This document shows positions 11,918-16,105 of a DNA stretch of 20,969 bases, one piece after another. The notes under the pieces are model-generated. The model did no database searches. It had not been told where the DNA came from and saw nothing but the letters and a program-made list of their open reading frames with translations. Made by a program: the position numbers and the translations under genes. This DNA comes from a virus. The DNA lies in IMG/VR virus record IMGVR_UViG_3300036822_000088, positions 1 to 20,969 of that record; one strand, given 5' to 3'. The first letter of the stretch is position 1. The number at the start of each line of letters is the position of its first letter.

Positions 11918-12586
11918 CTACACCGACAACGCCTGACCGACCACTGGACAGAAGGCAGGGTGGACTATCTTGTTCTCTGTCCTGATCTCATCGTAGCGAC
12001 TGGCATCACCGTACAGCCGCTGCGAGATGATCAGGCTCGGGAGAGAATTGGCGAACTGGTAGGACAGCATGCTCGGAAGGGGTCTGGCCGTGGCCACCAG
12101 ATAGTTGACGATCGCCGCCCGCAGTTCGACCAGCGCGATGTAGTCTGCTCCAGCCATGGTGTCCGCGACGACCTCCTCCGCCGTGTTGAACGGGACTTGG
12201 ATCGCCTTGATCAACGCGTCGACGTCTTGGCGGCTGGAGAACGTCATCCTGGAGATGATCTTGCCCTCTTGGGCCAGCGTGAACAGAATGCTGCGATCCC
12301 TGACCATGGTGGCTCCGAGCGACGCCGGTGTCTCGACGTCCAGCAGCACGCGGACCTCCTCCATCTGTGGCAGCGTGCAGCCGGACTGGCGCACCAGATC
12401 AAAACAGTAGTCCAACGGCATGCCGAGCTGGTCGGAGCACAGCAGGCTCATCGCATTAGCCGACACAAACCCAATGACCATCTTGGCCTGGACGGCAACG
12501 CCACCGGTTCCCACGATGATCCTCAATAGATTGGACAGCGTTCTCTGGACAATCCCGTTGGCCTCTAGTGCGTCTGGTTTCTCCAT
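11918..12586 (-). CDS. Mu N-like tail/DNA-circulation protein, C-terminal half as separate gene
   Basis: 222 residues with no N-terminal DNA_circ_N domain. The body is helical (AGADYIALVELRAAIVNYLVATARPLP). Its end, SLIISQRLYGDASRYDEIRT followed by ENKIVHPAFCPVVGQAL, matches the conserved C-terminus of Mu N-type proteins ('LYGDASRADEI--RN-I-HP-F--G--L'). The gene starts with a TAATG overlap at the end of the DNA_circ_N gene, so the two are coupled. Together they total about 427 residues, close to a full-length N protein. It probably works with the N-terminal half in the baseplate or tail tip. Confidence 0.72.
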   Translation of the reverse strand: MEKPDALEANGIVQRTLSNLLRIIVGTGGVAVQAKMVIGFVSANAMSLLCSDQLGMPLDYCFDLVRQSGCTLPQMEEVRVLLDVETPASLGATMVRDRSILFTLAQEGKIISRMTFSSRQDVDALIKAIQVPFNTAEEVVADTMAGADYIALVELRAAIVNYLVATARPLPSMLSYQFANSLPSLIISQRLYGDASRYDEIRTENKIVHPAFCPVVGQALSV

Positions 12587-13203
12587 TATCTATGCACCAT
12601 CATCAGGCGTTGCTGCTGTGGAAAGCGATCATTGAACGTGTCACCGGCGATGGATGGCGGCGCCGTCGCGTCTCCGGCCAATCCCCGTGCTGTCTGGTCT
12701 CGAAGCGTGTCTGCGGCCGTATTCAACACCGCGGCGGTGTTCACCGACATGGTCAGCACCTGGGGGTCGAGCCCAAACTCGGCAAACTCAATGTCGAATG
12801 TGCAATAGCCTCCCTTGGCATCCTCCTCGGTCAATCTGTATCGAGTTACGACGACGTTCTCTGGAGGCAGCGTCTGGAGCACCAGCTTGCCTGGACCACC
12901 CTCCTCCAACACGCTGAGCAGATTGTCACGAGCTACCCGATAATCGATGTTGTAGAGCCCACCCGCAGCACCATCCATGGTGTAGGGATAGGTGATGCAG
13001 TATGCCCTGATGGTGAACACCTTGGCCCGCCTGCCCATGTCCTCCGAGTACGGAATGTCCTTCTTCGGAAACTCGTGGGTGATGATCCTGCGGCCGTTGT
13101 TCTTGCTGTTCGCCTCGGTGAAGAAGTACGCATTCTTATACGATGAGGGAACGCCAGCCATGGCGTCTCGAAACGGGAGGTGGATGTCCATGATGGTCGA
13201 CAT
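12586..13203 (-). CDS. DNA circularization-type (DNA_circ_N) protein, N-terminal half of Mu N
   Basis: 205 residues with the DNA_circ_N pattern: SSYKNAYFFTEANSKNNGRR and ITHEFPKKDIPYSEDMGRRA, then VFTIRAYCI, DYRVARDNLLSVLEEGGPGK and LVLQTLPPENVVVTRYRLTE. In Mu this domain opens protein N, a baseplate/tail component named for DNA circularization but structurally part of the tail tip. Here the protein stops after the domain and a short Ala/Asp-rich tail, and the C-terminal half is the next gene. It starts by a TGATG overlap with the tape measure stop. Confidence 0.85.
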   Translation of the reverse strand: MSTIMDIHLPFRDAMAGVPSSYKNAYFFTEANSKNNGRRIITHEFPKKDIPYSEDMGRRAKVFTIRAYCITYPYTMDGAAGGLYNIDYRVARDNLLSVLEEGGPGKLVLQTLPPENVVVTRYRLTEEDAKGGYCTFDIEFAEFGLDPQVLTMSVNTAAVLNTAADTLRDQTARGLAGDATAPPSIAGDTFNDRFPQQQRLMMVHR

Positions 13204-15446
13204 CAGCGCTCACCCGAGAAGCGTTCTTCGAACGTGGCAGCCGGCCCAACCTCCGCCGGAGCCATCTGAGTTTGCCGATTGATCTCCGTCTTCTTGAACA
13301 GGCCTCCGCCCTCCATCTTGACGTTAGTACCTGGAGGAGCATTGATGTCGGCAGTCAGCTTGCCGGTGCCCTCGACCTTGACGCCCTGCCTGGCGTTGGA
13401 GTCAACCACAGCCCGGTCGTCGTCGGCACGGCGGAAGGAGAAGCCTTGGTCGGTTGGAAAAGTCTTGGAGGTGTAGCCCATCTGCGTGGCGGCTGCCGAG
13501 GTGATGTCGATCCCACGACCCGTTCGTGCAGCCGGGCCTATGTCCGTCTGGGGCAGCATGAACTTTCGACCGTCTGGAGTAGTCACCTCGAACATCTTGC
13601 CCAACCCTGCGCGCGAGGGTAGCGCGATCCCCGGGACCTGGTTAGATGCTCCACTGGCCGTTGGACGCCCCACCGGCTCCGACGGGTCCTTCCAGCCCGG
13701 GCCACTGCCGAACCACGATCCCTTGACGGTCGGAGGACCACCCTGACCAGCATCTTGGGTTGGCCTGATCCTGATGCCAGTGTTGGCCTGGTCTGGCGCC
13801 GGGGCCTGAGCCTGGCCAGGTGGCTTGCCGGTGACGGCCGCGTTGGCCTGGTCCGGCGTCAGGCCCTGGTCGATCAAGGCCTTCTTGGCCGCATCCTGGC
13901 TCCTGATCCCGAAGTGGCCAGCATCCGGGTTGCGCCAGTCGGCACCAGAGACCATCCCCCACTTTGACGCGAGGGCACGCTCAGTCTCCGCCGGTAGCGA
14001 GACGCCTCCACTGCGGATATTGCGACCTATTTGGTTGATGTCAATGGCCGCCCCAATGGGATGGCCGCTGGCGTTACTCGGGCGCTCTCCCAGTGTGCCG
14101 CTGGAGGGACCGATCACACCACCAGCCTTCTCATAGTCATTGATGAAGCCCTGGAAGTTCTGCGCGTAGCGGGCGTCGACTTGAAACTTCTTGCCGCTCG
14201 CTGTGGTCACGGTAGCCATGCCTCCGCGGGCGATCGGTGTGCCCGCCGGAGCGGTGATCCCTCCACTGCCGCCAGCACTCCCAATCGGAGGCGCACCTCC
14301 ACTGGGTGCTTCACCCGCACCGGCTCCAGTGCCAGGACCTACAGCTGAGCCATTGGGCAGCAACGTGGTGCCCTGACCTCCCCTGAGCAACCCTCCGCCC
14401 AGCTGGCGCTGCTGCTCGGTGAACCCACCACCACCCTGGCGGCCAGAGAACCGATCCCAAAAACTGGGCGGAGCGTTCCCGCCACCTGAAGGTAGCTCCT
14501 CCGGCTTCAAAAACTTCTCAACGGCTTCCAACGCCTTATTGAGCAACTCGATCTCATGCGTGGTATTCCTTATGACCTCCGCCAGTCCAGGTCCTAGCGC
14601 GAGGACCAGCGTTTCACCAAGTCCCTTGGAGGTCACCATCAGTTCCTTGATCGCCTTGTTGGCCTTCTCCGACCGCTCAAACAGTTCTCCAAAGCGCTTC
14701 TTCTCTTCCTCACCCATCTCCCTCATGTGTGGACCGAGCAATCTGGTGCTCTCATCCAGTTTCAGAATTGACTCCAGCCAAGTATTGGCCGCCTTGGCTG
14801 CGTCCGCCTGTGCGACGTTCTCCTCCACACCTCGGCGCTTATTCGCCTCATAGCGATACTGCCTGACATTCTCAGCCTGCTGCTGCGCCCAGTTGAACTT
14901 CTGCTCCCAAGTCGTCAGCTTCTCAATCTGGGCGAGGCTGGCGATCATGTCCGCCTTGTGAGTGCCAGCCATATTGATAGCTTGCTGGTAGCGCTCACTG
15001 CCTACTCGCGACAGCTCAGCCAAGGCATCTGCAAAGCCGGCCACACTGCTCTGGGCCTTATCCGCATCCACCCCAGCTCGCTCGAGCTGGTCGACCATGT
15101 TCTTGAAAGTCGCAGGCTGTACGCCGATCAGCTTGGCCTTCTCAGCCAGCTCGGCCAGCTTGATGGCGGTGCTGGTAAGGACCGCACCCAGGCCACCCAC
15201 GACTGCTCCGAACGCACCCATCCTGCCAATCATACCGAGCATCGCACGCTCGCCGCCGGTGGCCAGCTCGGTGAGCTTCTTAATCCCCTCACCGATCTCT
15301 TGCTGCGAGCGCTTGAACTTATCCAAGCTCGCAGCAGCTTGGCCACTCGTGAGCTGGGTGATGTTGCCCTTGAGCTGCGCCAACGCAGTAGACGCCTGGT
15401 CGTCAAGGACGACCTTAAGTCGAAGCTCTTGTTCCTCTACGGCCAT
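13203..15446 (-). CDS. Tail tape measure protein with M15-like peptidase and double-psi barrel-like domains
   Basis: 747 residues with AGGAG five bases before the ATG. Residues 1-310 are long helices with a hydrophobic stretch at 68-98 (AMLGMIGRMGAFGAVVGGLG), the usual tape measure layout. A Gly/Pro-rich linker follows (320-410). Residues 420-515 resemble M15 peptidases: GHPIGAAID gives H462 and D469, and NPDAGHFG gives D508 and H511 as zinc and catalytic ligands. Residues 615-675 (LPQTDIGPAARTGRGIDITS) resemble an RlpA-like double-psi beta-barrel. Such domains open peptidoglycan for DNA entry. Total length is short for a tape measure, with about 310 helical residues, implying a short tail if only that part sets length. 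Confidence 0.85.
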   Translation of the reverse strand: MAVEEQELRLKVVLDDQASTALAQLKGNITQLTSGQAAASLDKFKRSQQEIGEGIKKLTELATGGERAMLGMIGRMGAFGAVVGGLGAVLTSTAIKLAELAEKAKLIGVQPATFKNMVDQLERAGVDADKAQSSVAGFADALAELSRVGSERYQQAINMAGTHKADMIASLAQIEKLTTWEQKFNWAQQQAENVRQYRYEANKRRGVEENVAQADAAKAANTWLESILKLDESTRLLGPHMREMGEEEKKRFGELFERSEKANKAIKELMVTSKGLGETLVLALGPGLAEVIRNTTHEIELLNKALEAVEKFLKPEELPSGGGNAPPSFWDRFSGRQGGGGFTEQQRQLGGGLLRGGQGTTLLPNGSAVGPGTGAGAGEAPSGGAPPIGSAGGSGGITAPAGTPIARGGMATVTTASGKKFQVDARYAQNFQGFINDYEKAGGVIGPSSGTLGERPSNASGHPIGAAIDINQIGRNIRSGGVSLPAETERALASKWGMVSGADWRNPDAGHFGIRSQDAAKKALIDQGLTPDQANAAVTGKPPGQAQAPAPDQANTGIRIRPTQDAGQGGPPTVKGSWFGSGPGWKDPSEPVGRPTASGASNQVPGIALPSRAGLGKMFEVTTPDGRKFMLPQTDIGPAARTGRGIDITSAAATQMGYTSKTFPTDQGFSFRRADDDRAVVDSNARQGVKVEGTGKLTADINAPPGTNVKMEGGGLFKKTEINRQTQMAPAEVGPAATFEERFSGER

Positions 15447-16105
15447 CTATTCTCCTGACTCCACGGCGCGACTTCTCTCCAGTTGGGCCGTCCTGCTGAG
15501 ATGGAGCTGGACCTCGCTGATCGACATCTCAAGAAAGATGCGCGGATCGAGGTGGTAGTAGCTGGCTAGTCGATAGCAATCGATGACCATGCCATCGTCG
15601 ATGACGGTGGTCACCACGCCCGCAGATCGGGTAAAAAAAATTTACGCAGACGATAGGCACAACTGTTCCAGTCACGCGGGTCCATAGCCTCGAGCAAGGG
15701 CGGCAGGATGCCGCAGAGCGCACCCATGATGTAAGTCATCTTGCGCTCCTCGATGATGATCTCGCCGTCCCACAACATCCGCGTCGGGTTGCCTATCCTG
15801 TTGATCTCGCTTGCACGAGGCTCACGAAACGACAGGCTGTTGATTGTCTCACCGCGATCATTCTTGATCGAGCGATACAGGAGTTGGACCGTGATCGGCC
15901 AAATCTCCGCACCCTCGGTGATCTCCTTCCTGAGCTGATCGGTCTCACTGATCGGTGGCTCAATCTTGGGAGCCTCAGTCTTGAGCTGCGACGGCAGTGG
16001 TGGCTGTGGCGGCGCAGACAGTGGGGGCTCCAGCGGAGGCGGCTCAGGAGAGATGAAACCCTCCCTGATTTTCGCGCCGCCGTTTCCCTTCTCCAGTTCT
16101 ACCAT
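15447..16105 (-). CDS. Tail assembly chaperone fusion made by -1 frameshift
   Basis: A TTTTTTA heptamer at 15638-15632 is in phase as T-TTT-TTA. A -1 slip there would continue through 61 further codons (15632-15450) to the TAG touching the tape measure ATG (TAGATG), giving about 219 residues. The extension contains DCYRLASYYHLDPRIFLEMS and then EVQLHLSRTAQLERSR, the small helical shape of downstream gpGT/E'-type chaperone extensions. In contractile and siphophage tails, a minority frameshift product binds the tape measure. The frame, position and length all fit. Efficiency is unknown, and the extension could also be made from an internal ATG at 15590, which lacks a ribosome site. Confidence 0.75.
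15611..16105 (-). CDS. Tail assembly chaperone, short form (Mu gp41/TAC-like)
   Basis: The zero-frame product is 164 residues. GAGGTG precedes the ATG. Residues 20-55 are Pro-rich and disordered. ITVQLLYRSIKN, INSLSFREPRASEINRIG and YIMGALCGILPPLLEAMDPRDW with the LRKFFL end match the Mu gp41/phage_TAC_7 family ('V-L---I-----G-----L--REP---D'). It lies between tube and tape measure, the standard place for this chaperone, which coats the tape measure before tube polymerisation. It ends six codons after the slippery site, with PDLRAW then TGA. Confidence 0.82.
   Translation of the reverse strand: MVELEKGNGGAKIREGFISPEPPPLEPPLSAPPQPPLPSQLKTEAPKIEPPISETDQLRKEITEGAEIWPITVQLLYRSIKNDRGETINSLSFREPRASEINRIGNPTRMLWDGEIIIEERKMTYIMGALCGILPPLLEAMDPRDWNSCAYRLRKFFLPDLRAW
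15632..15638 (-). promoter_or_regulatory. Slippery heptamer T TTT TTA for -1 frameshifting
   Basis: Read on the - strand, eight T residues (15640-15633) are followed by A (15632). The zero-frame codons are AAA TTT TTT TTA, so the X_XXY_YYZ heptamer is U UUU UUA. Short inverted repeats follow at once: CCCG/CGGG around ATCTG, then GTGG/CCAC around TGA. These might act as stimulatory structure, although the first is closer than usual. Confidence 0.78.

Follow-up and report, generated by a model that had tools for sequence, protein, structure and literature searches.

Locus and gene neighbourhood

The window analysed here is a stretch of DNA of 20,969 nucleotides from a soil phage (positions 1 to 20,969 of IMG/VR record IMGVR_UViG_3300036822_000088). 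It includes an ORF of 747 amino acids on the minus strand between positions 13203 and 15446; the plus-strand frame of this region is interrupted by stops. The N-terminus of the encoded protein matches the tape measure protein (TMP) family phrog_2276 (residues 9-155, E 4.8e-7), and also phrog_8125 (TMP) and phrog_2013 (lytic tail protein). The gene is located in a Mu-like contractile-tail cluster, with a sheath gene upstream and, downstream, genes for a DNA_circ_N/gp43-type protein, a gp44/GpP-like hub, a gp45 spike, gp46, Baseplate_J/gp47 and gp48. Together, the PHROG matches at the N-terminus and the Mu-type tail neighbours bear out the identification as a tape measure that had been made from the sequence alone. 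The features of the gene are as follows.

13203..15446, minus strand: tail tape measure protein, 747 aa, with two wall-active-like domains (ORF, PHROG match, gene context)
14499..15446, minus strand: N-terminal tape measure region, residues 1-316 (phrog_2276 match)
14259..14498, minus strand: Gly/Pro-rich linker, residues about 317-396 (translation)
13854..14258, minus strand: M15/LAS metallopeptidase-like domain, residues 397-531 (Pfam in relatives, AF2, VIA-align)
14061..14063, minus strand: H462, predicted zinc ligand, SGHPIGAAID motif (invariant)
14040..14042, minus strand: D469, predicted zinc ligand (invariant)
13923..13925, minus strand: D508, predicted catalytic acid, DAGHF motif (invariant)
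13914..13916, minus strand: H511, predicted zinc ligand (invariant)
13731..13853, minus strand: second linker, residues 532-572 (mostly low pLDDT, length variable among relatives)
13425..13730, minus strand: RlpA-like double-psi beta-barrel, residues 573-674 (AF2, PA4485 match, hhalign)
13647..13649, minus strand: A600, at the position of the second catalytic acid of RlpA, acid absent (Glu in 1 of 30 relatives)
13542..13544, minus strand: D635, counterpart of the RlpA catalytic Asp, NDRGP motif (30 of 30 relatives)
13506..13508, minus strand: D647, second invariant Asp, GIDI motif (30 of 30 relatives)
13224..13379, minus strand: conserved C-terminal tail, residues 690-741 (15 invariant columns in 15 sequences)

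The C-terminal tail is common to relatives that carry quite different enzyme modules. A Pfam match to FlgE_D3 (residues 669-733, E 0.024) was set aside because it lies below the cut-off, begins at the end of the barrel and spans the tail, and is present in only two of 24 relatives.

Two other places in the tail cluster contain paired ORFs. Between the tube-like gene and the TMP gene, two small ORFs (164 and 64 aa) overlap in different frames at 15529-16105 (minus strand), as one would expect if they encoded a pair of tail chaperones related by a frameshift. In place of one Mu gp43-like gene there are two adjoining ORFs (11918-12586 and 12586-13203, minus strand) matching opposite ends of phrog_184, which could represent either a split gene or a frameshift.

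The M15/LAS peptidase-like domain

The sequence-only reading had placed two wall-active-like domains behind a Gly/Pro-rich linker, and both the linker and the domains are present. The first domain carries the HxxxxxxD ... [DE]xxH pattern, formed by H462-D469 and D508-H511. These four residues belong to the 22 columns that do not vary across 36 M15 sequences, whose identity to the window protein ranges down to 36%. They are also invariant, together with D635 and D647 of the second domain, in an alignment of 24 relatives that takes in more divergent M15 subtypes with inserted loops. All six residues had been named previously, and each was found at the position assigned to it.

A Pfam search with the whole TMP yields Peptidase_M15_4 at 18.3 bits (E 0.0036), and the scores obtained for the window protein (18.3-21.5 bits) are below the curated 25-bit cut-off. 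The same family matches 34 of the 36 relatives at E<=0.01, with a best value of 1.5e-6. As a sequence-based prediction, the M15 assignment therefore becomes firm once relatives are included. A search of solved-structure sequences with the whole TMP or the M15 profile produced nothing relevant.

The AF2 model of the isolated domain has a pTM of 0.82, with low confidence in the loop directly before H462. When this model was compared with known structures by VIA-align, the best 21 rows were without exception LAS metallopeptidases or Hedgehog relatives of theirs (Z 4.9-7.0), including LdcB (7.0), DacB (6.8), VanYB (6.4), Ply500 (6.2), LysB4 (5.7), ChiX (5.2) and VanX (5.2), and the row that follows is an unrelated protein at Z 4.1. 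The top row aligns 115 residues at an rmsd of 3.9, placing the model in the LAS fold. All of these Z scores are modest (<8), and Foldseek gives E values no better than 0.009, yet the uniform LAS identity of the top rows is telling. Known M15/LAS peptidases such as LdcB, VanY, Ply500, LysB4 and ChiX share both the fold and the HxxxxxxD/DxxH pattern with the TMP domain, which differs from them in being shorter, in having only 10-20% identity over the aligned residues, and in residing inside a tape measure.

The RlpA-like barrel domain

The second domain is modelled confidently across residues 571-676, with pLDDT mostly above 90. Its best structural match by VIA-align is PA4485 (4avr), with which 91 of 94 residues align at Z 11.6 and rmsd 2.1, identifying the fold as that of RlpA. 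This is followed by the hub of Anabaena phage A-1(L) (Z 10.7) and then by kiwellins, loosenin, expansins and MltA (7.6-7.7), with expansins and loosenin at Z 7.5-8.7. By hhalign, the barrel matches an RlpA-type profile, made from four sequences of one Bradyrhizobium genome plus the A-1(L) hub barrel, at 93.9% (E 1.6e-7), and the M15 profile used as a negative control gives 0.5%. A profile of the barrel searched against solved structures reaches PA4485 with an E value of 0.37 when built from 10 sequences and 0.012 when built from 26. Pfam DPBB_1 gave no reportable match to the whole TMP and only E 0.15 with the C-terminal half. The barrel is clear from AlphaFold2, from Foldseek and VIA-align and from profile-profile alignment, and barely registers with DPBB_1.

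Both D635, the counterpart of the RlpA catalytic Asp, and D647 are retained in all 30 non-redundant relatives that carry the barrel. In contrast, the second acid of the T-A-[SN]-G-E motif is replaced by Ala600, with Glu at this position in a single relative, and the conserved His of RlpA is replaced by Ser611. The second-acid position is also Gln in one of three bacterial RlpA-type proteins that were aligned. Another acidic residue, E620, is nearly invariant among the TMP barrels and peculiar to this family. In Pseudomonas aeruginosa RlpA, the residues at these motifs are presumably E120 (second acid) and D157 (catalytic Asp). The two acid positions are 37 residues apart in three of four sequences measured, which is consistent with this sequence-based placement. 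From this spacing we infer that D157, and D145 of the Vibrio cholerae protein, correspond to the Asp of NDRGP. The active-site mutation D145A abolishes the function of V. cholerae RlpA (PMC8820737).

In short, RlpA and PA4485 (PF03330) have the same fold, the NDRGP Asp and the Asp of the IDxS motif in common with the TMP barrel. Unlike them, the TMP barrel lacks the second acid and the conserved His and is part of a tail protein. In addition, the lipobox that would be expected of a lipoprotein of the RlpA type is not seen at the TMP N-terminus (MAVEEQELRLKV), and a Pfam scan of the TMP gave no match to the SPOR domain.

The phage endolysin (2335-3297, minus strand) has, besides its Amidase_3 domain, a stretch of ~110 aa at the C-terminus that contains the barrel-like motifs WDVGPW and AGIDLSPALA. 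Single-sequence hhalign of this stretch against RlpA is weak (13.5%, E 0.0021), and the lysis enzyme possibly has the same peptide-plus-glycan pairing.

Precedents in other phages

The strongest comparator for the TMP is gp15, the baseplate hub of the Anabaena myophage A-1(L) (PDB 8kea). When isolated, its 'endoglucanase' domain and its peptidase domain both cause lysis of host cells in vitro, and mutations of conserved catalytic residues lower activity or expression (PMC10966104). We regard this 'endoglucanase' as an RlpA-like barrel because its sequence includes TANGERF, NDRGA and IDLS. Like the TMP, the hub combines such a barrel with a peptidase in one contractile-tail protein, and the two barrels superpose at Z 10.7 over 100 aligned residues. 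However, the A-1(L) protein is a hub rather than a tape measure, has an extra lysozyme domain, and keeps the second acid (TANGE) where the TMP barrel has Ala. Its peptidase was considered as an M15 candidate and rejected, given that the motifs look like those of M23. In the Nostoc phage A1 record KU234533 (L153:12978-15676), the hub appears split into two genes as deposited.

Peptidoglycan-cutting domains within tape measures are documented (PMC1796659; PMC6116005; PMC10194240). Examples include motif 3 of TM4 and the TMPs of T5, phiIPLA35 and enterococcal phages (GH23), although these domains belong to other fold families than the two described here. For TM4, there is experimental evidence that the hydrolase motif of the TMP promotes infection of cells in stationary phase (PMC1796659), and the Barnyard tape measure carries two wall-cutting motifs. 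A search of the open-access literature found no paper that mentions both 'tape measure protein' and RlpA.

Relatives and their modules

Scans of viral contigs returned 50 loci with the whole TMP, 37 with the barrel alone and 65 with the M15 profile. From these, 74 non-redundant C-terminal halves were annotated with locally built module profiles. The SLT, Glucosaminidase, Phage_lysozyme2, CHAP and Amidase_2 modules are supported by Pfam. The glycan-slot labels SLEB, MAEV, LYSX and LYS31 and an NLPC-like module have no relevant Pfam match and were classed by resemblance; the NLPC-like module matches a tail-lysozyme family in PHROGs (E 1.5e-24).

The barrel is present in 30 of the 74 relatives. 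Its neighbour is an M15 or CHAP module in every case and another glycan module in none (0 of 30). The partners are M15A, the subtype of the window TMP (19), M15B (4), M15D (2), M15C (1) and CHAP (4). Outside viral contigs, a search for barrel modules gave hits in 4 of 265 Bradyrhizobium genomes, one of the four being weak and in a 122-aa frame, and in 1 of 397 genomes of the order containing this genus. In BFVD, the matches include phage proteins annotated as M15 or RlpA, among them A0A6J5LEY6 (a D-Ala-D-Ala carboxypeptidase by name, with 341 aligned columns), which suggests that the M15 and barrel pairing exists in other phages. This pairing had been called uncommon, a description that holds only outside the TMP group, because within it the barrel always accompanies a peptide or amide module and because the A-1(L) protein with a barrel and a peptidase has already been solved and assayed. 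In three relatives (L130, L134 and L226), very long Gly-rich repeats between the modules extend the tape measure to 1000-1600 aa.

The more interesting result is the pattern in which modules are combined. Two recognised modules are present in 62 of the 74 relatives, representing 22 distinct pairings. In all 62, one is a peptide or amide cutter and the other a glycan module, a putative glycan module or the barrel; none carries two modules of one class. When labels were shuffled over the 22 pairings, with the barrel and the putative modules counted in the glycan class, none of 20,000 shuffles reproduced this pattern, and on this wider count the sequence-based case for the rule appears strong. 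The strictest count, restricted to the seven distinct pairings in which the glycan partner was classed as SLT or glucosaminidase, has a chance probability of 128/3432 (about 4%) and is suggestive. All such counts are less independent than they look, owing to shared ancestry.

To avoid the bias of querying with M15 or the barrel, the scan was repeated with the conserved C-terminal tail alone. This recovered 53 non-redundant TMPs, 34 of which have two recognised modules, and again no same-class pairs were observed (0 of 34). The two sets partly overlap, with some contigs in common, and their counts are not additive. Additional pairings in the tail-anchored set are Amidase_2 with the barrel and a reversed order of barrel and CHAP. 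Most tail-anchored TMPs with fewer than two recognised modules appear, by eye, to have an extra enzyme-like domain beyond the profiles used.

Modules also appear to be exchanged between close relatives. Windowed identity between L010 and L018 is 95% at the N-terminus, mostly 85-95% in M15 and 98% in the tail. Between M15 and the tail it falls to 20-30%, and this stretch forms the barrel in L010 but a Pfam-recognised glucosaminidase in L018; the mid coiled-coil part has also diverged (35-75%). Conversely, L054 and L056 share a barrel (85-88% identical) beside M15 domains of different subtypes (about 20%). By sequence comparison, both look like clean recent swaps of a single module. Mosaic pairs escaped detection by BLAST, whose gapped alignments extend across the unrelated modules, and it was windowed identity that revealed them.

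Proposed function

We consider it likely that the TMP of this Mu-like contractile-tail phage doubles as a two-headed virion-associated lysin, in which an M15/LAS peptide cutter is joined to an RlpA-like barrel that cuts or loosens glycan. In Mu, residues 674-690 at the C-terminal end of the TMP are located with the hub and spike where the tail is closed off, and the spike and TMP have been proposed to be released once the hub has rearranged (PMC11915804). By analogy, the tail of the TMP described here is probably held by hub and spike in the virion, and the M15 domain and barrel would lie just above it in the tube, to be first out after the spike. On contraction, judging from Mu and other TMPs, the protein would leave with the spike so that both domains reach the periplasm and peptidoglycan. 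The M15/LAS domain is predicted to cut a stem-peptide bond with zinc on H462, D469 and H511 and D508 as general acid/base, and the barrel to cut or loosen glycan strands via D635. The two activities together would open the cross-linked wall faster than either alone. The role in entry is thus drawn from analogy.

That one tape measure might cut both peptide and glycan strands had also been proposed from the sequence alone. The peptide-plus-glycan split is still the best reading, but glycan cleavage by the barrel is open to doubt given A600 and Ser611. With D635 kept and these two positions changed, cleavage is better described as likely than as established. That earlier interpretation is therefore partly supported: it overstated the rarity of the pairing and understated the doubt about barrel catalysis. 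The loss of the second acid and the His in almost the whole family, together with the presence of expansins and loosenin among the closest folds, would also fit a barrel that binds and loosens glycan and positions M15 as the only enzyme; expansins act without hydrolysis. We hold this to be rather unlikely, since the better matches are PA4485 and the barrel of the A-1(L) hub, the latter reported to be lytic, and since a recognised glucosaminidase takes the barrel position in close relatives. Moreover, MltA, a lytic transglycosylase whose barrel is related, works with one Asp.

The specificity of the M15 domain is a separate matter. The structures that it matches best are LD- and DD-carboxypeptidases (LdcB, DacB, VanY) and its Pfam family is named for D-Ala-D-Ala carboxypeptidase, so that the domain might only trim stem peptides and leave the cross-links, with the glycan module alone making the hole. 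The endolysins Ply500 and LysB4 and the endopeptidase ChiX are nevertheless within 2 Z units; with both kinds so close, fold does not discriminate between carboxy- and endopeptidase, and we judge the trimming role unlikely. That both domains are retained decoration or structural stuffing devoid of lytic function is very improbable. Domain borders do vary, and three relatives (L115, L119 and L123) have M15 as their sole recognised module, but all predicted catalytic residues are invariant across divergent modules and every named module that is swapped belongs to a wall-enzyme family.

Beyond the two-headed lysin, the family-wide pattern raises the possibility that the TMP is a two-slot cassette holder, selected to hold exactly one module that cuts peptide or amide bonds and one that cuts glycan, in which either could be freely replaced by another of its class and the barrel fills the glycan slot as a new single-Asp double-psi lytic branch. 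We give this broader proposal slightly less than even weight. Lysin domains in tape measures are already known, and the literature consulted on wall-cutting tape measures contained no description of one-of-each pairing; the new point is a pattern in the combination of enzymes, which may amount to a rule. A survey of phage protein mosaicism saw mosaic signals in TMPs and could confirm no recent case (PMC10684548), and the two swaps described above bear on that open point. If the rule is true, entry by this route would require that both kinds of bond are cut, and the function of unlabelled modules could be read from that of their partners.
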